From Ulota crispa (taxonomy: Eukaryota; Streptophyta; Bryopsida; Orthotrichales; Orthotrichaceae), in contig OY987252.1 of NCBI GenBank assembly GCA_963920765.1, positions 3,085,966-3,149,965 on the forward strand: a stretch of DNA of 64,000 bases, read 5' to 3'. The notes under the pieces were generated by a model. The model searched no databases and was not told where the DNA came from. It saw only the letters and a program-made list of their open reading frames with translations. Shown here piece after piece: positions 10,621-64,000 of this stretch (position 1 is its first letter; the number at the start of each line of letters is the position of its first letter). Made by a program: the position numbers and the translations under genes.

Positions 10621-10629
10621 TTAATAATA
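10621..10629. repeat. 9-bp target site duplication, left
   Basis: TTAATAATA, repeated directly at 13032-13040, flanking the foldback element. Confidence 0.85.
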
Positions 10630-13031
10630 GGAAAAATTTCATTGATACTCGTGAAGTTTGCAATAATACTACAGACACCCATGCTTTTTCAATAATATCA
10701 AAAATACCCTTTAACTAGGAGACTTCTCTCCTGATGGTTTCTTTTGGGCTGCTTCTTTCTTGTGAATAGCAATTTCTGGTTGCAATGAAGCATCCAAGCT
10801 ATGGCGCGGAGGATGCAAAGGGCTTTTGCAATTCCAAGACAATTTCACCTTTGCCTCTTCACGGCGTTCAGCTCTTCACAACAACACCGAAAAAATTTAG
10901 CTCTTGCACTGAAATTTTTTAGCTCCTTTTTCAGGGTTCTAGGGCAAGTTTGTGCAAGATCATGTATTGCTTGGAGTTCTTGAGCATGGAATTTGGATAT
11001 TTGGAAATCCAAAATCAAGCGCTTTGCGTTTGTTGAAATTTTACGCTTAATTATGTTTTCATTGGTTGTAGTCTCAACTATTTCTTGCTTGAGCAAGTAT
11101 AGGCAACAGAGAAATTGAGAGCAGAGATTCTGAGATAGTTTGAGGCTAAGAACAATGCAAAAGCAAGTTGAGATGCCAAAACAAATTTTTGCTCAAACAT
11201 GAGGTCGGTGATTCAATCATACGTTCATGACCTAGGTATGCATTTGATGCATAGATTGTTAATCCTTTATAATACTGAACATGGTGCTTTTGTTGAGTCT
11301 ATTATGATATTTTAATGTACGGACTTTTGTTGTACAATTCTTCCCTTTTCCATCTAATTTGTGGTTGTGTTTGAGTGATTTACTAAAACTCATGGTCTAG
11401 TTTGAAATTTTGGATTGCGGTGTTCTCCTACATTATCTTTAGAGCCATTGTCAAACCTATGGAAGAGCATGGAGGCTAGCGTGGAGGTCTTCTTCTACAC
11501 CCTACTTGTTGCTTTTTTGACCCGACCTCTAGACGTAAATTTGAGGCTATTTCCTACGAGGTTTGTAAAGATTTGCATAACTTAAGTTGAATTGCCAACC
11601 ACTGTTTGTGGTACATCATCTAAGCATTCAACCATGAAATTGGCAAAGTTAGGATATGCATACTCATGTAAAAGACTAAAGATGATCATGAAATACAACA
11701 ATTGTAGATGCTTATAAATTATGTAACAATTTGAAAGAGAACTACCTGCCAAATCAAGAGATATCAAGACATTCTTGTTGTCACACTACACAGACAAAAC
11801 ATCGATAAGCACAAGAAGCTCTGCTTCTAAATTGAATTGTCCTCTCTTCAAAACAAGCTTTCCATACTCAACCTGCATAAAATCCAAAATTCATTCTCTT
11901 CAAATACTTCAAAAGAGCATCAACAGCTCAAAATATTACTTATTTCAATACACAAAGAGCAAGTGATTTTATAGCTCCAACAATTGTCTCCACAAATCCA
12001 TAATCCAATTCTTAAACCTTGGTATAATGCAATCAAAAGGCAAAAGAATAAACCAAGGGGAAGGTCAAACCTTGGCAATATCAAGAGTGGAATGGAGCAA
12101 AGAAACTAGGGATGTGGAACAACAGTGAATTTGTTGAATACTCCCATTGTGCTCTACACTGAGGTTCTCCATGAGCAGCGTGTCTAAGAGACCAATGATA
12201 CATGCCATTGGCATTCTCAGCTCATGGCTGTCCAAAAACACCACAATTCAAAATTTCAAACTAGGCCATGAGTTTCAGCAAATCACTCAAACACAACCAC
12301 AAATTAGATGGAAAAGGGAAGAATTGTACAACAAAAGTCCGTACATTAAAATATCATAATAGACTCAACAAAAGCACCATGTTCAGTATTATAAAGGATT
12401 AACAATCTATGCATCAAATGCATACCTAGGTCATGAACGTATGATTGAATCACCGACCTCATGCTTGAGCAAAAATTTGTTTTGGCATCTCAACTTGCTT
12501 TTGCATTGTTCTTAGCCTCAAACTATCTCAGAATCTCTGCTCTCAATTTCTCTATTGCCTGTACTTGCTCAAGCAAGAAATAGTTGAGACTACAACCAAT
12601 GAAAACATAATTAAGCGTAAAATTTCAACAAACGCAAAGCGCTTGATTTTGGATTTCCAAATATCCAAATTCCATGCTCAAGAACTCCAAGCAATACATG
12701 ATCTTGCACAAACTTGCCCTAGAACCCTGAAAAAGGAGCTAAAAAATTTCAGTGCAAGAGCTAAATTTTTTCGGTGTTGTTGTGAAGAGCTGAACGCCGT
12801 GAAGAGGCAAAGGTGAAATTGTCTTGGAATTGCAAAAGCCCTTTGCATCCTCCGCGCCATAGCTTGGATGCTTCATTGCAACCAGAAATTGCTATTCACA
12901 AGAAAGAAGCAGCCCAAAAGAAACCATCAGGAGAGAAGTCTCCTAGTTAAAGGGTATTTTTGATATTACTAAAAAAGCATGGGTGTCTATGATATTATTA
13001 CAAACTTTAGGGGTATTGACAAAATTTTCCC
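10630..13031. mobile_element. Foldback Mutator-like element, 2.4 kb, with 800-bp terminal inverted repeats
   Basis: The two arms, about 10630-11429 and 12232-13031, are inverted copies of each other. The outer ends are GGAAAAATTTCATTGATACT and GGGAAAATTTTGTCAATACC. Directly outside both ends lies TTAATAATA (10621-10629 and 13032-13040), a perfect 9-bp target duplication, the classical Mutator length. The GGGAAAATTT start also fits Mutator-like elements. The 800-bp loop contains no transposase, so it is non-autonomous. The arms include an identical 83-codon open frame. Confidence 0.88.
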
Positions 13032-13040
13032 TTAATAATA
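13032..13040. repeat. 9-bp target site duplication, right
   Basis: TTAATAATA, matching 10621-10629. Confidence 0.85.
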
Positions 13041-19619: not shown

Positions 19620-22600
19620 ACTAGTAAAAAAATGGGAAATAATGATTGCAATTAACAACTACATTTTAGTGGTTTATGGCATGAAACTACTCAAATACAA
19701 CTAGATGGATTGCAGTTGTACTTTAGTCAACCACAGTTACATGCTAGTGATAGTGTCTTGTCACGTTTGCCATCTACTCAAAAACAACTGCAACCTTTTC
19801 ATCCATTGCCCCTCCTAAATTTTGGTAATAACTTGCCCCCTCTGCCCTTCTTTCTTCTTTGTTAGAAGACATCTTTCCCTTTAATCCCAATGTCTTCATT
19901 AATGCACATCTGACACACAAATGACCAGGTGCCACATGTCATATTTATAGAGGTTCTGGTCATATTTAGGCAATTTCATGAAATGTGAAATTGATAATCC
20001 GCAATGACATGTGTCCCTTGCAGCCGTAAAGCAATTGTAATATAGTTATAAAGTAGTTGCTTTGCAGTTGATTATATTGTTTTAGTAGAAAAATGGTTCA
20101 CTTATAAATTCATTTGTACATTAGTTGTTTTTCAATTGTCACACAGTCAATTTATAGTCAAGTTCAGAACATAAGTAACTCTTCACTCTCTTTTGGTACT
20201 ATAGTACAACTGCAATGTACAGTCGATTGACAGTGATAGTTGCAATTTAGTTGTAACTAAGTTGACCTCACAACTTACATGCTAAGTTGCCAACTATGCA
20301 ATTGCAAGATAGCTGTATCTCAGTGGCTTTAGTGACCTTGTGATCACTGATCAGTTGCACCGCAGTTCTCACATAGTAGGGACAAAGTTGTATTTTAGTC
20401 GCATTCTTGTTGTAACTTTGTTGTATTCTAGTTGAAATAGAGTTGGAAGCTAGTCATAAACACAACTCATTCTAGTCATCATTGGGTTATAATGCACTTG
20501 CCACTAAGTTGTAATCTAATTGCACAATAGTGGCCAAGAAGTTGTACATTAGTCGCACATTAGTGATTGAATAGTATAATGCAATAGGGATTTAGTTATA
20601 CATGAATAGGGCAAAATACCTAATACAAGGGCTAGTTGCAATGTAGTTGCACACTAGGATTCTCTACTGCTACATGATTACGTTATAGTATAGTTTAGGG
20701 AAATACACAATATGGAGCCAATCTCCATGTGCTTCACCTTCTAATAAGTGTTGGTCTTCAATCTTTTTAAACCGCTACAGAAATCATATCTAAACATCAA
20801 AGATTAATGACAAGCAACCTAACTTCAATGATACATATAAGCCCTTCTAAACTCCTCCAAACACCATAAATAGAACACCAAAACTCAATGTTAAACAACC
20901 TAATTTCAACTATAGAAATGAGCCCTTCTAAAACCCTCGAAACACCCTAATATCAACATCAAAGCTCAATGGCAAGCAACTTACCTTCAATGAGGCTAAA
21001 TTGGCTCTTTTGAACTCCTCTAAACATTCTAAAAGCAACAACAAAGCTCAATGCAAAACAACCTAACTTCTACTAAAAAAATCACCCCTTTGAAACACCT
21101 CTAAAAATCCTAATATCAACATCAAAGCTCAATGGCAAGCAATTTACCTTCAATGAAGCAAATTGGCCCTTCTAAACACCTTAAAACACCATAAAAGCAA
21201 TCACAAATCTCAATGTTAAACAACTTAACTTCTACTAAAAAAATCAGCCCTTCTTAACACCTCTAAACACCCTAAAAGAAACAACAAAGCTTACTGCAAA
21301 ACAACCTAACTTCTATTGTGAAGATGAGCCCTTCTAAAACCTCAAAAAACCATAATATCAACATCAAATCTCAATGGCAAGCAACTTACCTTCAACAAAG
21401 CAAATTGGCTCTTTGGAACTCCTCTAAACACCCTAAATGCAACAACAAAGCTCAATGCAAAACAACCTAACTTCTAGTATAAAAATCAGCTCTTCTACAC
21501 TCTTCTAAAAATCCTAATATCAACATCAAATCTCAATGACAAGCAACTTGCCTTCAATGAAGCAAATTGGCCCTTCTAAACACCTCTAAACACCCTAAAT
21601 ACAACAACAAAGCTCATTGCAAAACAACCTAACTTCTACTAAAAAAACCACCCCTTCTAAACACCTCTAAACATCCTGATATCACCATCAAAACTCAATG
21701 GCAAGCAACTTACCTTCAATGAAGCAAATTGCCTCTTCTAAATACCTTAAACACCATAAAAGCAACCACAAATCTCAATGTTAAACGACCTAACATCTAC
21801 TAAAAAATCAGCCCTTCTTAACGCCTCGAAACGCCCTAAAGCAACAACAAAGCTTAATGCAAAACAACCTAACTTGTACTATAAAAACCAGCCCTTCTAA
21901 ATACCTTTAAAAACCCCTAATATCAACATCAAAGCTCAATGGCAAGCAACTTACCTCCAATAAAAAAATTAGCCCTTCTTAACACCTCTAAACACCATAA
22001 AAGCAACCACAAAGCTCAATGTTAAACAAACTAACTTCATTGATGCAAATCAGCCTCCTCTAAGCCTTCTTACACACCACAAGTTAAAACCAAAGCTCAA
22101 TACCAAGTAACCTAAGTTCATTGATGCAAATCAATCCCTTCTAAGCACTCATACACACCACAAATGAACACCAAAGCTCACTACCAAACAACCTAACCTC
22201 AATGATGCAATTCAACCTCTCTCTAAGGATTTCCAAATACCATAGCTCTTGTAGACTAGGTGCAAAATGAGATATGGACTACACCGCCTTGAAGAAGTCA
22301 AGGTTTGTGCATTGACTAATACAACTGTAATACAACTACAAGCTAACTAAAAAACAACTAAATCACCACTCAAGAACAACTAAAAAATGACTACCCTACT
22401 AAGATACAATTGAAGCTGTGTAGCAATGCTATAGCATTTATTGCTTAGGTATTGCATGGAGGCAACAAAAAACGATTGAAACATTATGAAAAACATCTAA
22501 TAAACAACTACATGACTCAAATACAGCTGAAGTCATCTGGCACTTTAGTATTAATTTCTTAGTTAGTGCATGGCAGCGAGGACTGTGACATGAACTACAT

Positions 22601-26235: not shown

Positions 26236-28067
26236 CATGGGTAGGACGGATAAGGGATAGGAAGCGCACATTGTGCTTAGGTTGATAGTTCCGAGAGTTC
26301 CAGCAAATCCTGATGCAAGAAAGATGTTTGAGGAGGATCTAAGCTAAATGGGTTGTGAAGGACTCTTTAAGGTTCCGTGGGGTTTAAAAGACAAAGAAGA
26401 TGATCAGGGAATTGTTAGGGGATCCGGCAAGTTAGTAGGACAACTCTAAACAAGCCCATCTGGATACTTGGTCAGAGGAAGTCTGGATTGGAGTATACTC
26501 CTTTGCGAGTGAGGGAGGGGGGCTCTGCTTTTGGGGATAGGAGTAGAGCGAGGGGAAGTTTGCAATAGCAGCCAACTCTAAGAACGGGTACACTATTGCC
26601 GATTGTAAGAAAAATCAAGAGAGGCGAGTTCTAGAATTCTTGGTTCCTATTCTGCTTTTGGATAGACCTACCACCCTCACCCGTACCTATACTAACACCA
26701 TCTTTGATGCACTATCCTTGGAGAGAGCGGAGAATTGGGGGATAGTTGTCAGGGATGTAGTGTTGAAATTAGGGAACTTGATAGGGAACACTAAATCGTC
26801 AAGGTTCACTCCTTTCTTGTTCCATTTGTATAAGCATTTGGAATTTCTGAAGAACAAGGAGAATAGAGCCTATGAAGCTGTCGAGGTGATGATGAGATTT
26901 GACATCACTCCGGAACCTAAACCGGACCAAGAAGAAGAACCAAAAGCAGAGGCAAAAGAGCCCCTCAAACCAAAGAGATAGGAGCAAATCAAACAAGAGG
27001 GCAAGGAACCAGCTAGGGCTTTTGGATCTCTAGCAAAGCCAGTCAAGAAAAACCCCAAGGACTACTGGGATAAGAAACTTTTTTCTGACATTATTAGTTA
27101 GATTTAGGGGATCCATAAGGTAATCATGACTGATAGAGATGTTCTTTACAAACTGCTCGTATTGTTGGACGCTATCCGTAAAAACAAGCATTATGATACG
27201 GTGAAGGATTTCTATTGGACCAAGAAGCAGAGCCGGATAGAGGTGCAAAACCTATTGGGACAGGTGACAACCCTCACCTCACAACTACGACAGCAATCAA
27301 AGGGTGACAAGTTAGCCCAACCCGCCTACCAGGATATGACTCAAATCCAGAGTATGGTCTCCATTCCAAGGGACATGGTGGCAAAGGCTAAATTGTTCAA
27401 TTACAAATTGCTGAAGATGGGATTAGCAATGAGTGCCAAGCTTGTGGAGGTGTTGGTGGAATATGCAGGCAAGATGGAGGAAACATTGCAGGAGATGCGC
27501 GCAATCCTGCATTGTCAAAGCAAGATGCCAGAAGAAAGAAAAGGATCTAGGAGAAAGGGAGCCACACCTGCCTGGAAAACTCCACCTCTGCCGTCTCCTT
27601 GTTCTACTGTTAAAGAGGGACCAAAGGAAGTGAGAACACCTCCTTCCGTGCGGTTGCCCAAAATGGTCAACTTTGGACCTAGAGAAGGGTCTACGTCCCG
27701 ATCACGTACTTAGAGCCAGACCCAAGTAACTCCTGACAGTGGAGGTGTCGCTTGGGTACCAAGTCCTATCAAGAGGAAGATTACTCCAAAATGCTCCAGA
27801 GCGTCAACGTCCTCTGTTCCTACGATTGACTTGGATGACAAACCCTTTGCCTCCAACACGAATTATGGTGAGGAAAACGAAACTTTGACGGAAGCCTCTG
27901 GTGACACCGACCCGGAAGTTGTGAGGCTATCAAAAGCGAAGAGCGCAAAGAAGAAAGGGAAAATGACAAGAAGTTACCGAGCTCCAGTGCAAAGATCCTG
28001 GACACGTAAGAGTGCCGCCACACCGGTAGCACCTGCAGCAAAGAAGACGAAGAAGAAGAATAATTAG
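26236..28067 (+). pseudogene. Decayed gag-like retroelement ORF
   Basis: A long reading frame with stops. The first part (from ATG 26236) has stops and at least one frameshift near 26530. From about 26560 to 28067 one frame is continuous apart from stops at 26979, 27102, 27108 and 27711, all TAG. A helical N-terminal domain of about 110 codons (LLLDRPTTLTRTYTNTIFDA region, then FTPFLFHLYKHLEF) is followed by an acidic linker (26920-26980), a second helical domain (27126-27540) and a basic K/R/P/S-rich tail ending K-K-T-K-K-K-N-N. That is a gag-like layout. No zinc knuckle, protease or reverse transcriptase is present. The first domain may relate to the plant putative-transposon/gag-like families, but I cannot name it. 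Confidence 0.5.
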
Positions 28068-29218
28068 CTATCACCTAGTATAGAGTGGTAGTCTTGTAAT
28101 TTGAAATAAAGGGGAGGCGGTTACAAGAAGTTAGGGATAGCCTCTTGTCTAGCTAGTTTTGGGGATCACAGATCCCTGATTTAAGGATCTGAGATCCACT
28201 CTTAGAGGCAGCTTGTGGTGCAAATTTAGACACTCTTTTTGTAGATTAAAGAACAAAAAGTGTCATTCTTTGATTAGTAACTTTACCATCAGGAAGCTTT
28301 TTTATAATTTGTAGGAATTAGTTATTAGGGGCAATTGTACCATTGTTGCCTTGGGCAATTTTATATTTTTGATTTTCTTTGTGTACAACAAGTTCTGAAT
28401 TTTCACTTCAGAGTTATGAGTTGATGATTTAGCGCGATTTTGATATGCCGGCAGTGCTAGAACCATTGCTTTGTGCAGGTAGCCGGACGTTGAGTGTGAA
28501 GGAAACAAAGATAGTCCTCGGATCCTATTTGATCACGTTTTAGTAGCATTATTGAGGTGGTTGGAAAACTATGTGTCTAAGGGGCAGTTCTTGTTTGGGT
28601 TTACGATCTGGATACTCTTGTGAGGGATAGCCAGTCTTAGATTAGATGCGATCCGGATAGCAATCCCGATGCATGCTAGTTGACGGTTGAGAGGTTCCAC
28701 TACTACCAAGCGTGATTGTGAGCATAGTAAGAAGGATCCTTTAAGTATCCGGTTACCATCTTATCACATGAGTTGGGTCAAAAAGGATTTGTTGTTGTAG
28801 TAATTTGGAGTTGTAAGGGATTCTTGAGCGACTTGTCCGTTTGGAATCACTTTTGGATTGCCTGTGAGGAAGTAATTGCATCTTATTGTTGTTGTGTTCT
28901 TTTCAGTTGCTTTGTTTAGTGATACATTCACTATAAACTGTCAAAAGATAGGAACTCACGCTGCCTTCCTTAAATCAAATAGTGGAATCCTTAACTATAG
29001 AGGTTAAATTTCTCTTGTCATAGTTAAGTGTCCTATCGGAGCCGGATTTTAGCAAAGATCCAAATATTCTGGTTATTTTGTGTGTGTGTGTTTGTCTTGG
29101 TGTGTTATTGCAAATTCTAAACAGGGTTTGCCTATCCTGTTATGGTCATCTTAAGGGTCTAGAAACTAACTCTCTATGAAAACAATAAACAAGTCACTTT
29201 ATTGACATTTTAACACTT
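28068..29218. other. Non-coding tail of the gag-like element
   Basis: AAAGGGGAGGCGG at 28109-28121 could be a polypurine tract. The 1-kb stretch that follows has the even composition of LTR sequence and ends near a short TG microsatellite (about 29080-29090). No 5' partner was recognised, so LTR status is unproven. Confidence 0.35.
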
Positions 29219-30276
29219 TTGAATGCTAATAAGAGGATAAGTATTTTCTTGTGCTACAACAACTACAAGAATAAGGACAAATCCCAATTACCACCGAAGA
29301 CATTGGCAACACGCTATAACGCACTCATCATGAAGTTGCAAAAAACAAAAGAAGAGAATCTGCGGAAGGCAAAGAGTATGGAACCTGTGTTGCTTACATG
29401 TAATTACAACGGTCAAGCAGGAGGCAACCGTAGATCACTAGTTATGGCGACGTTGGGTCCTTGCCAAAGCAGAACAAGAAAAAAAACAACCCTTGTTGAT
29501 AGCAAGGGAACACCATTTGAGGATTTGCGACTGCTGCAAAGGCACGTAACAAAGCAGTGCCAAAATCCACAAAGAAGGAGCCTCCAGCAAACAGTAGTAT
29601 TGCTTTTGAGGTACTGAACTTCCCCAAGAACGTTGGTCCCAACAGCCACAATATTAACTTTGACCACTGTTGCAAAGTATACAAGGACTTCTGGAGGGAT
29701 TGCACAGACTCGTACATTCCATGGATCAATTCCAAGTACTCCATCAGCATTGACCAGCTAGAGACCCTGCCAGCGCACTTGAATATCCAAGGCTTAGAGG
29801 AAAAAGGAATCTTGAAGGCCTAGAATTTCCTCCTCCACATGTCGGACCCCTAATAGAGAATGACCCTTTGTGTAATGCTACAAGGTGTAATAAAGAACCC
29901 TGCGTCATTTGATGAAGTGAAGAACAAGAAGTTTTGGATGATAAATGAATAGCATACTATTGAGGCTTTGAAGCAAATGCAGCAAGTAAAGCAGATGGAA
30001 GAGTGAGCATAGATATTCAGGATGTGGAATTGTTATGTTGTATGGAACAAGGATGAGCGGATTATACGCAAAATCTTGGCATTCTACAATAGGACAAACC
30101 ACTTTCAAAATTTCATGCCATCATGGGCCACAAATATCATTTGTGCATGGCAGGTGTGGAAAAATATGAAGAGTCTAGCACCCCCAAAAGAGGCAAACAC
30201 GCTAGTGAGGCTTGCATTCAACCAAAGGAAGTCCACAGAGAGGGACATGACCTTGTTCAAAAATTTCAAGGTACAA

Positions 30277-30447
30277 TTTAACTTGACTCAAGTTAAACTT
30301 TGCTTTTGGTATCTTAGTCTGCGCAAATACAATTTATATCTCTATACCAAAATTCAACTCAAGTTGAGTTGAACTCTGCTTTCAGTATCTTAGTCTGTGC
30401 AAATATAATTTATATCTTTGTACCAAAATTAACTTGAGTTGAGTTAA
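30277..30447. repeat. Palindrome cluster 1 (three copies, 76-bp spacing) in intron 1
   Basis: Palindrome copies start at 30277, 30353 and about 30429. The first has arms TTTAACTTGA / TCAAGTTAAA around one base. The second has TTCAACTCAA / TTGAGTTGAA. The third is imperfect (TTAACT...AGTTAA). The spacer ATCTTAGTCTGYGCAAATAY is duplicated along with them, so a unit of about 76 bp was tandemly copied. Confidence 0.85.
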
Positions 30448-31843
30448 AACTAAAGTCTTTACTTCGTCAAATGTCAACTGTCAACACCACAAGACTTTGA
30501 GAGGGAAATCATTACATGGTTTGCAAACATTGACGTGAAGAAGAGCCAAAATGCATTGATGAAGAAGAAGGACGTTGACATCTACAACGAACTGAAGATT
30601 ATAACTGTACGTCAACCAATACACAAGTTATGGAAAGACATCATCTTCAGCACCACACTGGAGGAGCTCATCAACCGTGATACCTACTTAAAGTTCAATG
30701 CTGCAAAAAATTGGAATGTGGACAAGGATGGTGTGATATCTTGGGAATTTTTTAAGGGAATGGGCAATGTCTCGTTGGATGATCTGCGGAGACTTGCAAC
30801 ACACTTGTTGAATTGAACTTTGGGATGCAAGTATCTCCATCTGAAGGTGGTAATGAAAAAACCATCAAGTTGTATAGTGGATTGCTATACGGCCAAAGAC
30901 TGGCTAGAGAGGTGTAAGAGGAAACTGGCGGTGCAATGGCAGCTCCACAATCTCAACATTGACCTGCTCTTGTTCATGCTGGACGTTGTATTGAAGAAGG
31001 ATGCGTAGAAAGCATTCAAGAAGAACTACAATATCACGCCGGCAACAATGAACACCCTTGTGACAGGACCAAGGGAGTTGTTTTTTGTCAAAGTCAAAAA
31101 AACCTGCAACCAGAACAAGTCAATCCATGACTTGTCCCCATACGCTCAGGAGTTCTTCAAGGTTTTCTTCAAGAGCAAAGGCTTGTTTAAGAAGCCAGAG
31201 GCAAAAGCCTTCCTAAGAACCTACCACATGGAAAGTGGCAAACTTGGGAATTGGTCTACTTCAGCAAGCAATGAGCTAGAGGATTCAGAGCTGAGTTTTG
31301 GGCTCCTTGACTTTTGCAATATCCTGGGGGTGATCAGCAAGGGGGTATCCACTTCACCGTACTTCATCGCATTCCTGGATGAGTTGAGCAACCAGGAGGT
31401 TCCTAAGCTGACAAACCCGAGAGTGTGGCTCTGGATTTCTAAAGACTAGGAGATGGTGTTGCTCCTACGTTCTTACTTTTGAACTAAATCCCTCAGAGAA
31501 GTGTACGCTTTACACTGTGCAAGCTATCATCCTTCTTCCAACAAGCAACTAGAGGATCTCTTTGAAAGAAAAGGAAAGACAAAGGCTCATTTGCAATTGC
31601 TATTCTTTATCAAGAGGAACTCCAGATTGAAACCAAGGCAAATACCTCAAGAGTTCCATGCTCCAAAGACTAACTTGTACAATAAATCAGGGCAATACAA
31701 GAAGCTCCTCTATTGCATATATAATACAAAATTGAGAATGGAGTTATATTTGAAAGTTTTGGGCTTGCTGTGCAATCTAAGGGATTCAATCGTCTCCATG
31801 TTTGGCAAAGGCTAAATCATATCGGCAGCGTGGGTGAGTAGCT

Positions 31844-32108
31844 TTTAACTCAACTTGAGTTAAATTTTGAGTTGTCACTATCTGCTATATTGTGTATCCT
31901 TGTGAAATGTATGCTGATAAATTTGCTGTTGTAAACAACGGACTACACTTGAGAAGTTTGTTTAACTCGACTCGAGTTCAATTTTGGCTCCTAGCTTTTG
32001 AGATGTAGAATGCGTACTTGTTATACACTTATATTGTTCCATGTTCATATTATTGCTGTACTTATAATTCTAGACTTGAAACGGTGGTTTAACTCAACTC
32101 AAGTTAAA
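31844..32108. repeat. Palindrome cluster 2 (three copies) in intron 2
   Basis: Copies start at 31844 (TTTAACTCAA / TTGAGTTAAA, perfect), 31961 (TTTAACTCGA / TCGAGTTCAA, one mismatch) and 32088 (TTTAACTCAA / TCAAGTTAAA, two mismatches), each with a one-base centre. The intervening sequence does not look duplicated. All lie in the intron between 31834 and 32148. Confidence 0.85.
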
Positions 32109-33209
32109 ACAAGATAAGCTTACAAACTACTTGACATCTTCCTTGCAGATGCATTCACTACAAAATTTTGTTGTTGAGGACAGCGGTTATCACAATAGGT
32201 GCCAGGACATCGCGGTCATGTCAGAGAACATGGACAAGGACAATTTCCTTGAATCAAGGTATGTTTTGGACTGTAGCAAGTTCACAAAGATCAAGGAGGG
32301 ACGTGCGTCGTCGTCATCTCCACTTGCAAGCAGTAACAAGGGGAAAAAGAAAATTGCAAACAACGGCAATGAAGGGACAAGAGGAGACAACCCTATCAGT
32401 CTGGCCTCCAATGACCACAATGACTAGGAAGATCTACCTCAAGATCAACCTGACCAACCTCCGTCAACACCTTCGGCCTCCGCTAGGGCATCACATTCTA
32501 ATGACTCCTCAAATTCGTCGGATGAGCAGCAAGGACCCCCTGTTCCACCGCCTCAACAAATCAAGCGGAAGCAGGCTCATTTGCTCGTGGTATTGGAAGA
32601 GCGGAAGTTGATTATGGCAGCTGTGCAGGACGTCTTGGCTCTAAACAAGGAGGAAACCAAGAAGGAGAACAAGAGGATTTGCAAGGAAAACCAGAACTTC
32701 TTCAAGGACATGGCAAAGACCTTCTTGGACAGTATTCTAGCTATTGTTGGGAAAACCGTCATGAGTATCATGACTGATCAGCCCCTTCAAATCTCACTAC
32801 CTCTAGGTGACCCAAAGCCTCTTCAACTTGCCAACACGCCCCATGGATTAGCCAACAATGCCCGCAGGGACCTCTTTGATTCACGAATGCGTACATAATC
32901 GCAGAATACTCCTCTGCAGCAGTTATCTCCATTGACCTCAACCCCGCTGCCAGAGCCAACTCCGCCATCCTCAACAACGCAACATGGGAGACTGTCCAAG
33001 AGGCTGCGGATATAGCAATGACTGTCTCTTCAACCATCCAGAGTCCTGCTCTATTGCTTGACACACTGCGGGAGGACCCATATTCAATGGTCGCCGCGGT
33101 TACCTCTGTTGACAAGCCTGAGAAAGAAATGGACAAACACGCAAAGCAGTAATTGGGCCTTGTGACTGCTACTCTTCCAAGTTGACCCCAGTGACTCTCT
33201 GCCTATTGT

Positions 33210-33230
33210 TTTAACTCAACTTGAGTAAAA
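33210..33230. repeat. Palindrome copy 7, downstream of the last exon
   Basis: Arms TTTAACTCAA / TTGAGTAAAA around a single C, about 310 bp after the final stop of the decayed gene. Confidence 0.8.
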
Positions 33231-33737: not shown

Positions 33738-33959
33738 TATAAATACTACACTTCAATCCATTGTTTTCTTTGTTTCAAGCTCTTTGATTTTCATGGATTC
33801 TACCTTCTCTTTCCTTGGTGAGTGTACAATACTTCTTTATCATGGTGGACAGTTATTTTGCGTTCACTCCTTTAATTTGTCTGCGCATTATGCTCAACGT
33901 GTGAGCAACATTTTGAATGGAATGCATAAGTTCCATTAGCTGCTCTAGTACCTAAAATA

Positions 33960-34700
33960 GACCAAGTATTTAGCGTTAGACCAAGATGGCTTAATGTGAT
34001 ACTTGATCTCAATGGGGTCCTCTATATCGTTGAAAATAGGAGACACCTCTACATGGAGGGAAGGCACAGTGAGACCTACTGTTGTGCTTGCAAACTAGAG
34101 GAATATAGTGTTACTTATAGGGAAGTATTTTTTCATCCACACTACCGCAAATTCCTAAGGGAGCTCATCGCCATATTGTACGTGTCCATCTGGTCCACAA
34201 TGCTTGTCAACACAACTATCTTAATTTCTGAACGCCTATTCAAAGGCCTACCTCCTCCCTATCATATCTTTGGTTAGGCACACTGCGACTTGTTACCAAA
34301 TTCTTCCTTGCCGCATTATCAAGATATGTCTAGGTTTCCAAAAGAAAGGCTATGCATGTAGAGTAAGGATCTAGCTAAGTGCTTTGGGCATAAAAAGTTG
34401 AAATTCTCTAAAGAGAACACAATTATTATGGATGACTCTCCGTTACAGCATTTATTTAATCTACAAGAGAATGTGGTCCTGCTAGAGAGGTGGTCCTCCA
34501 TAGAGGAAGGCAAACTTGATACGTTCCTTCTTAACAATCTCTTGCCATGGATTTGTTGCCTTGAATGGGCTGGAAGAGATAGTCTGCTGGCATTTAGGAG
34601 TTTGGATGATATAGGTTATCCGTTGTCTAATTGCAATGGCTACTCTTCCAATTACAATGACAACCTAGATTTCACAGTAGGCATGGATAATACCTTCTAA
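33960..34700 (+). pseudogene. FCP1/NIF-like HAD phosphatase remnant
   Basis: One frame runs from about 33975 to 34700 with two in-frame TAG stops (about 34275 and 34356). It shows the order of an FCP1-homology (NLI-interacting factor-like) phosphatase domain: RPRWLNVILDLNGVLY at the start (HAD motif I as D-L-N-G, as in plant members lacking the second aspartate), then H-P-H-Y-R-K-F-L-R-E-L, then V-S-I-W-S-T-M (motif II position), K-D-L-A-K near 34368, and IIMDDSPLQH (motif III/IV with D-D-S-P) at 34425-34450, closing with an L-L-P-W-I helix. The family dephosphorylates serine residues, classically of the RNA polymerase II tail. Replacement of catalytic D by N would argue against normal catalysis even if the stops were read through. 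Non-functional copy. Confidence 0.8.
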
Positions 34701-35840: not shown

Positions 35841-35961
35841 TGCTTCAAAAACCTCTCATTTCATTTGAAAACTCCCATATTAGTGAATATGGTGTTATCG
35901 ACCCTCTCATGGATTCAAATTCACAAGACTCAAGAGTAAAGCATCACAAGAGGATTGTTAC
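35841..35961 (+). pseudogene. 5' half of an exon split by a transposon
   Basis: After an acceptor ATTTACAG the frame is open for 40 codons and stops abruptly at the left end of the inserted element, in the middle of an R-I-V-T codon run. The reading continues in the same frame at 38455 on the other side of the insertion. Confidence 0.55.
35952..35961. repeat. 10-bp target site duplication, left
   Basis: GGATTGTTAC, matching GGATTGTCAC at 38455-38464 with one change. Confidence 0.75.
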
Positions 35962-54315: not shown

Positions 54316-55828
54316 CTATGTCTCATTAGTACCACCGCGTGGTATAATCGCAAAGACATTATGCAGTAAGGTTCAGGCAACATATCCAACGTGACGCTAT
54401 TTTAAATTCAAACCTTAGACAACTGTCCTGTACATAAATATTCTTCAGTCATCCACGTAATTTACAATTCTAAAGTAAATTATCTTTTAGAATGAGCACT
54501 ATCATTGCTTATGGATTTAGGGTTTAGGGTCATTTGGATGGGAGCACATGTATTTAGGTAGTCATATCATCCATACAATTGACTCTTTGTAGTCATGGTA
54601 CCCAAAACTACGTCTCTTGGTAGTCACTATCTTTAGGAATATAACTACGGCAAGTCACTGAGTGATCCCTCGGTCATTTCCACCAACAATGCTACTAGTT
54701 CTAGTCACTTGCATATATTGTTGGCACTTGTGGTGATCATAATCTATAATTTTATGATTGTCACTAGTTAGCCAAGTTCTCTACTTCTTCATTGATGGTA
54801 ACACTCTTGTGGATGCATAATAGTTACTATTCCTCTCCATGTGCCACAAGTGAACTATTAACCGATGATGACATGTACAAGTGAAAGGTGTATTGTGCAC
54901 TTATTATACATTGTCATCTTCAACAATGTGGTCAAGAATTACCTCCCAATATGGAAGGCAATGGAAGGCAATAGAAGGCTGTCAACCGTTTCATAGTAGT
55001 GGTATGAACCGGGTCACATGGTGAATTTGGTTTTTTTAGGGTTAATGCCCTAAACCAATCACTCCTCTGCAGTGCCTACTTCTTGATGTCAACGCTTGTC
55101 ATGGACTTTGGGGGTAACTCTGCCTCCACGGTTCCATCAAAATCCAATCTCATATCTCGGTACAAATGCCCTCTTCTAAGGTACCTGCTTAGAGAGATCA
55201 ATCATTATAAGTTCAAAGTTTATAGCTTAGTGAATAAAGAATTTCATCTGTGGCTGCAGATTTGACATACTACATTTGATGTCATTGTATTCTAATACAA
55301 GCAACTATGCAAAGCATATTTTCATTACCATATGCTTTTTTGTGACTTCACTCTTTTTGTTTCTAAACAAAGTTACATCATAAATGAGATACATTCTGCC
55401 AATGTATTCCTATTTAGTTCATTCTTTGAAAACAAATCCTCATTCTATGGTTTATGGATGTATATGCTAAGATCCATGACACGCATTAATAAGCATACAA
55501 AATACATGACCATTGTCCTAAATGTCCTAGTAGCAATCATTATGGACCAATTTCAAATACCTCCCCATTATAGGTCATGTATTTAAATCAATTTAAATAA
55601 AAGAGCAACAAGCAAGACTTTGAATCTCCCCAACTCTTATTTCTCTAGGCTATTTAATTAGGGTAAATTAACTCATACTAACCAATGCTTTTAGATGCTC
55701 TAAGTTGAATATAAGATAACATATGTTATTCTATAAATCTTACAATAATGGTACATATTACATAAACAATTTCCTCCTTCACTTCAATGGTCTTTAGTTC
55801 CTAAACATTGTATTCCATAAAACTTGGG

Positions 55829-57130
55829 CTAGTAATCTCTCCACTGGTACCTGCAATGCCCTAGATAGACATTTTTTGCAAGGACAATAGATCTTTGACT
55901 CCTCATGCTAGGTTTGCACTTTGGGCAACCTTTGTACCCCTTTGTGACTTGCACTGACGCTAGCCCGTAAGCCAGGAAATTGTGGATGCACCACATGAGT
56001 ACAGCTTGAATTGAGAAGTTATTATTTGTACCAATAACAGACGTGTCTTTTGCCTCAACACCCTTCCATAGATCTGCTAGTTCTTGTAGCAGCGGCGCCA
56101 AATAGACATCAATGTTACTAGATATAACACTTTCCTTCCTCGGGATTATGAGCAACAACATCAAGAAGAACCTCTTTGTCACTAACCATGGGGGCAAGTT
56201 ATAGTTCAATAATATGACCGGCCAGGTCAAGTGACTAAGCAATATGTTTGAGAACGGATTCACATTGTCCAATATCAATCCAAGCCTAATGTTTCTTGGC
56301 TTCGCTGCAAACTCTAGATACATGGTGTCTATGTGCCTCCAAGCTTTTGAATTTGGCACGCACTCCACATTGCTCCCCTCCTTTGTACAAGTTGCATGCC
56401 ATGTACACAACTCAGCCAATTTCTTGCATCAATACATGCGTTGCAATTAAGAGATGAGTGGAAAATGACAAAGAACCTTCTTAGGATGTCCGGGCTTGCT
56501 TAGGACATATCTAGGTTCTCCACATGTCAGGCACTCCAGTGCATCCTTCAACCCCAATCGAAACAAACAACAACCATTTTTGCAAGAATGGATGGAGACA
56601 CAAGAGAGTCCTAGTTTGGACAAATACCGCATTGCTTCATAATGCAATTTAAGTAAGGTCTTATTCTCAAGAAGTAGCTCTTTCAATAGTTTCAGCAGTT
56701 TGTTTGCACATGCATTGGAAACACCAAAGATTAAGAAACAATTTAAGAGCAAGAGTGTGGACACCAGACAATTTGACTTTGAACCCGCATATAAGGGAAT
56801 CCTAGATTGTTCAAATAGATCCTTTGCGTCTTTGGCCTCCTCACTTGTACCCATGCTCTCTTGCACTGCCTCATCTTCTAGCTCCACTACACATTCTGGA
56901 TCATTGCCATCAATATCATCCTCGCGATGTGGAAGATTTTCAAAGCGTTGAAAACACTCTGCAATCACTCGTATTGCGTCCACCTCATCTACGCCATTTG
57001 CATCCAAATTGCCATGCAACTCAGTTCCCTCATTGGTGACACCATTGACAGTGTCATCCCCAGTGTCTAGATTGGCTTGTTCATCCAAAATTACGTTGGT
57101 GAGGATTGTTCCACATATCAAAATAATGAA
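55829..57130 (-). pseudogene. CACTA transposase core (Transposase_21/Tnp2 N-terminal half)
   Basis: One continuous frame with two stops near 56449 and 56432. In order: an acidic linker (57100-56800); R-I-P-L-Y-A-G-S-K; L-L-K-L-L-K-E-L-L-L-E; the zinc-binding-like segment I-H-S-C-K-N-G-C-C-L-F then C-L-T-C-G-E-P-R-Y; C-H-F-P-L-I-S; L-A-E-L-C-T-W-H-A; S-K-A-W-R-H-I-D; F-A-A-K-P-R-N-I-R-L-G-L-I-L-D-N-V-N-P-F; W-P-V-I-L-L-N-Y-N-L-P-P-W; I-D-V-Y-L-A-P-L-L-Q-E-L; and K-G-Y-K-G-C-P-K-C. That matches the Tnp2 family block by block. The frame ends at 55829 where the family would continue (Y-L-G-H-R-R-x-L-P), so an intron or deletion lies before 54315. Confidence 0.93.
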
Positions 57131-62161: not shown

Positions 62162-62269
62162 GTATGCCTACGTCTATCACTTGAATCCATTGGATTTCTT
62201 TGTGAAGCCTTGAAATGCAATCCTCACTACCAAAAGTCCTCTTGAAAAGCTCATAGAGGGAGAATCTTT

Positions 62270-64000
62270 TTTTTTTTTCAAAAATTGGAAGCTCTTGTGA
62301 GGGCAGGCCCATTGAGGCCCTAATTTTCTGTGTTTTTGGATTGCTAGTCGATCAAAATGCTCATGGGGGGCACATGCTTGTTTTTATTTGTCATGCTTTG
62401 GAATCTAATTTGAATGCAAGGCCTATTGGGGCCCTCTTTTCTGTGTTTTCTAATTGCTAGTCAATCAAGGGCTCGTGGAGGCTGATGTTTGTTTTTTTTT
62501 CATGTTTTGGAAGCCGATGTGAGGGCAAACCCATTGAGGCCCTAATTTTCTGTGTTTACTGAATACTAGTCCATGAAGGGGCTCATGGGGGCAAATGTTT
62601 GTGTTTTTTTTCAAGATTTGGAATCTGATGTGAAGGTAAGGCAATTGAGCCCTAATTTTTTGTGTTCTCTGATTGCTAGTTCCTCAAGTAGCTCACAAGG
62701 GGCAGATGTTTGTTTCTTTTTCATGTTTTTGAATTTGATGTGAAGGCAGGGCAATGGAGGCCCTAATTTTCTGTATTTTTTGATTGCTAGTCCTTCAATT
62801 GGCTAATTGGAGTAGATGCATGTTTTTTTTTTCATGTTTTGAAAGCCAAAGTGAGTGCAAGGCCCAACGAGGCCCACTTTTTTGTGTTTTTTGATTGCTA
62901 GTTCCTCAAGTAGCTCACAAAGGGCAGATGCTTGATTTTTTTTTCATGTTTTGGAATATGATGTGAAGGGTTTGCATTTGAGGCCCTAATTTTCTGTGTT
63001 TCATGAATACTAGTCCATGAAGGGGCTCATGGGGGAACATGCTTGTTTTTATTTTCATGTTCTGGAATTTGATGTAAAAGCAAGGCAATGGAGGCTCTAA
63101 TTTTTTGTATTTTTGGATTGCTAGTCCCTCAATTGGCTCATGGAAGCTGATGCTTGTTTTTTTTTTCATGTTTTGGAATCTAATGTGAAGGCAAGGCAAT
63201 CAAGCCCTAATTTTCTGTGTTTTCTGATTGCTAGTCCCTCAAGTAGCTCACAAGGGGCGGATGCTTGTTTTATTTTCCTAGTTTTGGAATCTGATGTGAA
63301 GGGTTTGCAATTAAGACCCTCATTTTGTATGTTTTTTGACTTTTAGTCCATGAAGGGGCTCATGAGGGCAGATGCTTGTTTTTTTTTTCATGTTTTGGAA
63401 TCTGATGTTAAAGCAAGGCAATTGAGCTCTAATTTTCTTTGTATTTGGATTGTCAGTCCTTCAAACAACTCACAAGGGGCAAATACTTGTTTTTCTTTAT
63501 TTGTTTTGGAATCTGATGTGAAAGGTTTCCAATTCAGGCCCTAATTTTTTGTAATTTTTGATCACTTGTTCATGAAGGGGCTCATGGAGGCACATGCTTG
63601 TTTCATTTTTCATGTTTTCGAATCTAATGTAAAGGCAGGGCAATGGAGGCCCTAATTTTCTATATTTTTGGATCGCTAGTCCCTCAATTGGCTGACGGGA
63701 GCTGATGTTTGTTTCATTTTTCATGTTTTGGAATTTGATGTGAAGGCAAGGGAATTGAGCCCTAAATTTTTGTATTTTCTAATTGCTAGTTCCTCAAGTA
63801 GCTCACAAGGGGCAGATGCTTGAATTTTTTTTCATGTTTTGGAATCTAAAGTGAAGGCAAGGCAATGGAGGCCCTAAATTTTTGTGTTTTTTGATTGCTA
63901 GTCCCTCAATTGGCTCATGGGAGCAGGTGTTAGTTATTTTTTCATGTTTTGGAAGCCAATGTGAAGGCAAGGCCCATTGAGGCCCTCTTTTTGTGTTTCC
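62270..64000. repeat. 111-bp satellite, about 15 units, continuing beyond the window
   Basis: Units recur at 62500, 62612, 62723, 62835, 62947, 63058, 63170, 63282, 63393, 63505, 63614, 63725, 63837 and 63948 (position of the ATGTTTTGGAAT word), with one more before. Each has TTTTTTTTCATGTTTTGGAA, GATGTGAAGGCAAGGCAAT, GAGGCCCTAATTTTCTGTGT and TTGCTAGTCC followed by a variable tail. Three tail types occur: CATGAAGGGGCTCATGG, TCAAGTAGCTCACAAGG and TCAATTGGCTCATGG. The array is cut by the window end. Frames are open in repeats of 37 codons on both strands because 111 is a multiple of three. Confidence 0.92.

Follow-up and report, generated by a model that had tools for sequence, protein, structure and literature searches.

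The window, by which we mean the whole stretch of 64,000 nucleotides analysed here, comes from the 275-Mb genome of the moss Ulota crispa (GCA_963920765.1, contig OY987252.1, positions 3,085,966-3,149,965 of the forward strand). It holds a broken, truncated copy of a mobile element with the remains of one gene, here called gene A, two pieces of another open reading frame, one terminal inverted repeat and seven 21-bp dyads. The features are as follows, with dyads given without strand:

29262..30270, plus strand: first exon of gene A, as far as alignable with the copy on contig C4, limits set by eye
30277..30297: dyad 1, TTTAACTTGACTCAAGTTAAA, 10 of 10 pairs, intron a
30353..30373: dyad 2, TTCAACTCAAGTTGAGTTGAA, 10 of 10 pairs, intron a
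30428..30448: dyad 3, ATTAACTTGAGTTGAGTTAAA, 7 of 10 pairs, intron a
30494..31833, plus strand: second exon of gene A, degenerate, with in-frame stops, limits set by eye, 5' edge approximate
31844..31864: dyad 4, TTTAACTCAACTTGAGTTAAA, 10 of 10 pairs, intron b
31961..31981: dyad 5, TTTAACTCGACTCGAGTTCAA, 9 of 10 pairs, CpG in both arms, intron b
32088..32108: dyad 6, TTTAACTCAACTCAAGTTAAA, 8 of 10 pairs, intron b
32149..32898, plus strand: third exon of gene A, in-frame TAG at 32425-32427, limits set by eye
33210..33230: dyad 7, TTTAACTCAACTTGAGTAAAA, 9 of 10 pairs, 3' flank of gene A
33930..34697, plus strand: two pieces of a NIF/CTD-phosphatase-like open reading frame (PF03031, 16.3 and 14.1 bits, below the curated cut-off)
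35872..35896, minus strand: terminal inverted repeat closing the element on the right, CTCCCATATTAGTGAATATGGTGTT, at which the homology of the copies ends

Intron a (30271 to about 30493) and intron b (31834-32148) were delimited by splice signals read from the sequence; each contains three dyads, and those of intron a share a tandem unit of about 76 bp. All seven dyads picked out in an earlier note on this DNA are present and six of the starts given there are right, but the third dyad begins at 30428 and not at 30429, from where only 2 of the 10 pairs form. The three described as perfect (30277, 30353 and 31844) do have 10 of 10 pairs, and they are the only palindromes in the window with a one-base centre and arms of at least 10 bp. 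The remark that the window contains no further copies was likewise correct, in that the seven are its only sites within two mismatches of TTTAACTYRANTYRAGTTAAA. When three mismatches are allowed, 8 sites are found against 0.19 expected, a number reached in none of 100 shuffles; the eighth, at 55582 with three mismatches, is probably a chance match. The assignment to introns and the 3' flank stands, but the restriction to a single gene was too narrow, as outside the window the dyad is also present at another gene and in the element's short relatives.

The earlier note had left the gene A protein without a family, and hmmscan of 10 pieces from the window gave no Pfam family above cut-off. A DNA-binding domain was recognised neither in these pieces nor in 41 second-exon segments and the further pieces scanned, and no known fold was found, the single-sequence model (pLDDT 32) being useless. 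With the window exon as query, 50 matches were obtained in the genome, which represent 44 loci after removal of six secondary pieces of the same loci. Contig C11 (6.3 Mb), possibly a repeat-rich or sex-linked chromosome, carries 14 of these 44. The loci with at least 40% identity (clade 1) have the dyad in 27 of 27 cases, and in 22 of them it flanks the query exon on both sides within the fetched stretch; the dyad thus accompanies gene A copies and looks functional, as had been argued from the window alone. Most clade-1 dyads form tandem arrays with a period that depends on the copy (e.g., 61, 75-78, 105-106 or 117-125 bp), and in the C4 copy an array also lies 5' of the first matched exon. 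The dyad spacings (n = 152) gave no clear signal of helical phasing, with a resultant of 0.12 at 10.5 bp and 0.18 at 11 bp. In the lower-identity class (clade 2, 27-38%), the exact clade-1 dyad (motif 1) is absent from all nine loci read out of 17, and the same introns carry other 21-bp dyads, of the type TTYAGGTYRANTYRACCTRAA or of AGC, AGA and AAG types.

In the C4 copy a gene with the domain DUF7869 (PF25273, best E-value 1.4e-43) lies 21 kb from gene A in divergent orientation, with a second dyad cluster in its 5' region. This gene is probably the transposase, although the Pfam family name carries no function; its structure model (pLDDT 53), compared with known structures in view of a possible RNase H-like DDE/D catalytic domain, had a best PDB match of E 0.12, no PDB profile matched, a known fold was not found, and the term DUF7869 did not turn up in a literature search. 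When the 44 gene A loci were compared with 46 of the 118 DUF7869 matches, the two genes lay within 40 kb of each other at 27 loci, and all 27 pairs are divergent; the other 17 loci, including the window copy, have none of these 46 matches within that distance. The 5' regions of 13 of the 118 DUF7869 matches were read. Those of clade 1 contain the clade-1 dyad in 7 of 7 cases and those of clade 2 contain clade-2 types in 5 of 6, the exception being locus L062, which has no dyad. More distant DUF7869 genes have another companion gene, D1 (L035:4182-4826), and among 39 D1 loci (from 44 D1 matches, compared with 51 DUF7869 matches) there are 15 with a DUF7869 gene no further than 40 kb away, which is divergent in 12 cases and shares the strand of D1 in 3. 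The D1 gene beside the C4 copy was considered as a homologue of gene A, for which hhalign gives no support.

The dyads belong, as cis sites, to a family of large DNA transposons. One large copy was found with both ends (C11:753032-781229, 28.2 kb); it is bounded by inverted repeats of 25 bp that have the form AACACCATATTCATTAAAATGGGAG, shows no target duplication, and contains gene A, a DUF7869 gene transcribed away from it and a NIF-like open reading frame beyond gene A. The same type of end lies beyond the DUF7869 gene in the C4 copy and, in the window, on the far side of gene A. The NIF-like pieces at 33930-34697 have a protein match in the C11 element with 58-72% amino acid identity, and this reading frame is therefore probably a third gene of the element. 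Upstream of 29262 there is no DNA match to the 5' part of the C4 copy or to its 5' dyad cluster, which, together with the absence of any of the 46 DUF7869 matches within 40 kb, indicates that the window copy is the gene A half of an element. The open reading frames at 26547-28064 match no Pfam family above cut-off; they were considered as a further part of the element and rejected, because the first of them belongs to another repeat family, of which the genome holds 150 matches or more.

Terminal inverted repeats are common to the large copies and to MITEs, and within three mismatches AACACCATATTCATTAAAATGGGAG has 1599 + 1598 matches in the genome against 0 for the control. Eight of eight dispersed sites that were fetched for the AGG form of the dyad (motif 2; L044-L051) lie in one MITE family. 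Eight short copies with both ends visible, that of L034 included, are 253-295 bp long, and by eye five of them are flanked by 4-bp target duplications. They consist of little more than the ends and two dyads, each of which centres a palindrome of about 47 bp (also by eye).

A genome-wide search showed that the distribution of the dyad is not random and that the association with gene A copies for which the earlier note suggested a test exists. The exact oriented dyad has 130 sites (57 + 73) against 0 for the reversed control, whereas with three mismatches the counts are 2118 against 1557 per strand, a background so high that only close matches are informative. Among 100 listed sites of the 130, 47 have a clade-1 gene A copy no more than 6 kb away, for which 0.12% would be expected, 29 have a DUF7869 gene within 6 kb, 12 have either gene within 25 kb and 12 are more than 25 kb from both; none is classed under a clade-2 gene A. 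Two of the 12 remote sites were read (L001 and L002), and both are single sites in relatives of the MITE family mentioned above. For motif 2 the genome has 146 exact matches, and none for the control. Among the 100 listed, 46 are on C1 and C2, and 23 of these have an exact end sequence no more than 300 bp away, with 0.04 expected. The generic dyad with at most one mismatch was found at 248 sites in 49 loci, against 4 sites in the reversed control. One locus, L011, duplicates L010; it was kept among the 248 sites and the 27 loci and dropped from the tests of symmetry, trees and flanks described below.

None of the 248 sites overlaps a coding match, though 54% of the DNA concerned is coding. In blastn comparisons with the other clade-1 loci the coverage of dyads is 0.88, that of coding sequence 0.82 and that of the 100-bp flanks of the dyads 0.64, and dyads exceed flanks in 26 of 26 clade-1 loci; since the sites were picked by pattern, this contrast between dyads and flanks is partly built in.

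The compensating changes that had been proposed for single sites did not hold up. The two arms have the same YR state in 33 of 100 listed exact sites, with 39.3 expected by permutation, and a covariation test on 245 sites found no excess over within-locus permutation at bases 5-6, at base 3 or at YR. Symmetry is instead a property of loci and clades. At bases 5-6, 165 of 245 sites are symmetric against 102.3 ± 5.1 in across-locus permutation and 162.7 ± 3.6 in within-locus permutation, and across loci an excess is also seen within clade 2 (32 of 81 against 19.4 ± 3.6) and, for clade 1, at base 3 (130 against 115.6 ± 3.6). The across-locus values are weak or not significant for base 3 in clade 2 (44 against 39.5) and for YR in either clade (70 against 59.6 and 34 against 30.0 for clades 1 and 2, respectively). 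The YR positions are occupied by CA, TG, CG and rarely TA, and CpG in the window is at 0.36 of expectation, which makes methylation decay the simplest cause of the YR variation; the CA/TG/CG states would fit once-methylated sites that lost CpG through deamination.

The change that does keep the symmetry is the one between clades, AAC against AGG or AGC on both arms. Distant homologues have TTYAGGT/TTYAGCT-type 21-bp dyads in the same introns with both arms altered, and bases 5-6 are AC in clade 1 and mostly GG, GC, GA or AG in clade 2. Trees of gene A (35 sequences) and of DUF7869 (13 sequences) both split by motif type with support of 100/100. The motif thus changed at a single deep split that two linked genes share, from which it cannot be told which of the two proteins reads the site. 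Within clade 2 the code is mixed, the half-sites being mostly GG at nine gene A loci (41 of 98) and mostly GC at five DUF7869 loci (34 of 64), and on C2 and C3 AGG-type sites near gene A coexist with AGC-type arrays at the DUF7869 partners (L063 and L061); the reader, if it is one protein, must therefore tolerate both types there. Copying of whole sites by repeat homogenisation alone would not equalise the arms, whereas a shared reader of both half-sites would. The symmetry at the level of the family is more easily reconciled with a site that two identical protein subunits read than with an RNA hairpin. Of the two functions suggested in the earlier note, sites for a dimeric DNA-binding protein thus appear to be the best reading of the dyad, and hairpins are poorly supported because outer pairs are often missing.

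On balance we lean slightly towards reading the arrays as sites for a homodimer encoded by the element itself, which by analogy would act against silencing in the manner of VANC, in a transposon unrelated to VANDAL. In such a system, the homodimer would bind the dyad as two half-sites of the type TTYARNTYRA and would thereby recognise the non-coding regions of its own family. Binding may keep these regions unsilenced or activate them, as with VANC, so that the genes of the element would be expressed and its relatives, including MITEs, could be mobilised. The binder would most likely be the gene A product, for which such a role is plausible; judged by sequence, the DUF7869 protein is an equal suspect.

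To our knowledge, the VANDAL/VANC system is the best worked-out case of a transposon that evades silencing through its own family-specific motif. In Arabidopsis, VANC21 and VANC6 are reported to target family-specific motifs in tandem arrays that lie within accessory-gene introns and 5' of the transposase gene (PMC5735166; PMC10398659), the arrays of VANC21 being situated in the introns of VANC and VANB and upstream of VANA (PMC5735166). The layout described here resembles this in its short family-specific motif and in the position of its arrays, and also in having motifs that change as tandem repeats and are not the same in related families. That a protein of the element recognises its own family has been demonstrated for VANC (PMC5735166; PMC10398659) and is proposed here. 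Differences are found in the proteins, the motif and the carrier. VANC carries DUF1985/DUF287, and hmmscan found neither in the 10 window pieces, the 41 second-exon segments or the further pieces of gene A, exons 1 and 3 being represented by the window and C4 copies only. The VANC motif has nine bases and is one-way, unlike the 21-bp dyad. VANDALs are MULEs, which have a MURA transposase and a 9-bp target duplication, whereas the partner gene here belongs to PF25273 and the target duplications are of 4 bp in those short copies that have them. The system may hence resemble VANC in its action without being one, as the domains tested and the type of carrier do not agree. Target duplications of 4 bp are a feature of Sola elements. 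A second parallel is offered by En/Spm, where the sites of TnpA in Spm are repeated, short and subterminal. There too, as is proposed here, a protein of the element acts on such sites to activate the element's methylated DNA, but the sites described here occupy introns and 5' regions, and their partner gene does not encode a CACTA transposase. TnpA has been linked to demethylation (PMC10398659). A literature search on anti-silencing transposon proteins, palindromes bound by transposases, Sola and moss or novel transposons did not find a description of the element, which does not establish its absence from print.

The main rival is a role in transposition, because the MITEs are little more than ends and dyads. 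The DUF7869 protein, as the probable transposase, or else a transposition complex would then bind the dyads, which would be needed in cis for excision in the way that the subterminal TnpA sites are in Spm. We regard this as unlikely, though worth serious consideration: the closeness of motif-2 sites to exact ends on C1 and C2 and the dyads at the DUF7869 gene itself speak for it, along with the composition of the MITEs, but in large copies the dyads observed are away from the ends, the nearest in the window being 2.6 kb from the terminus, and arrays occupy the introns of gene A, the other gene. A host transcription factor driving both genes, with the introns and 5' regions as enhancers, is an improbable alternative. 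It would explain why the sites surround both genes in non-coding DNA, and a tolerant reader would suit the mixed versions of clade 2. A single factor would, however, be expected to keep a single specificity, and the two clades differ at bases 5-6 within one genome, with the two arms alike by locus and AC or non-AC at both genes according to clade; moreover, no more than the 12 remote sites among the 100 listed lie away from both genes. It is also quite improbable that the dyads are a by-product of MITE insertion or tandem duplication with no function of their own. The arrays are indeed tandem repeats and the same dyads are present in MITEs, but the dyads are retained in the same introns across proteins that are 40-70% identical while periods differ and spacers are less conserved, and among the gene A loci fetched for the end search MITE-type ends (at most six mismatches) occur only in L034. 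RNA hairpins in introns are scarcely credible, for although single sites fold locally, with -4 to -9.7 kcal/mol and z from -0.5 to -3.6 in the five window dyads that were examined, individual sites show no covariation at bases 3, 5-6 or 8-9, at least one of seven outer pairs is missing in 59 of 167 clade-1 and 45 of 81 clade-2 sites even with G-U allowed, the arms differ at bases 5-6 in 49 of 81 clade-2 sites, and sites also occur in 5' regions and MITEs.

The reading as self-recognition by a protein of the element leads to a wider and more tentative suggestion, which we consider possible but rather doubtful, namely that this is a second, independently evolved, sequence-specific anti-silencing system of plant transposons. 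It would be carried by an undescribed DUF7869 group of about 28 kb with an accessory protein that reads a symmetric 21-bp code in introns and promoters of the element itself; protein and code would have co-diverged between clades in one genome, with MITEs using the same code. If true, the same layout in an unrelated element, with a dyad code that changes on both arms from clade to clade, would suggest that private recognition codes arise repeatedly, and a single genome would offer dozens of natural variants on which to test the co-evolution of protein and DNA.

Some further features of the window and of the C4 locus may be recorded. Two palindromes of the form GGATC(N3)GATCC are found at 28163-28197, and in the 1-kb stretch around them GGATC/GATCC occurs 10 times, with a window mean of 1.0 per kb. 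Non-coding DNA at the other companion gene on C4 (L035) has a similar excess, with 12 in 1.08 kb, and this is possibly the motif of another group. A remnant of a CACTA-type tnp2 transposase (PF02992, 1e-50) lies on the minus strand at 55829-56428. Long tandem arrays with units of 81 and 111 bp occupy 20793-22202 and 62269-63998, and an inverted repeat at 10629-13032 has arms of 796 bp that are 97% complementary and separated by 812 bp.
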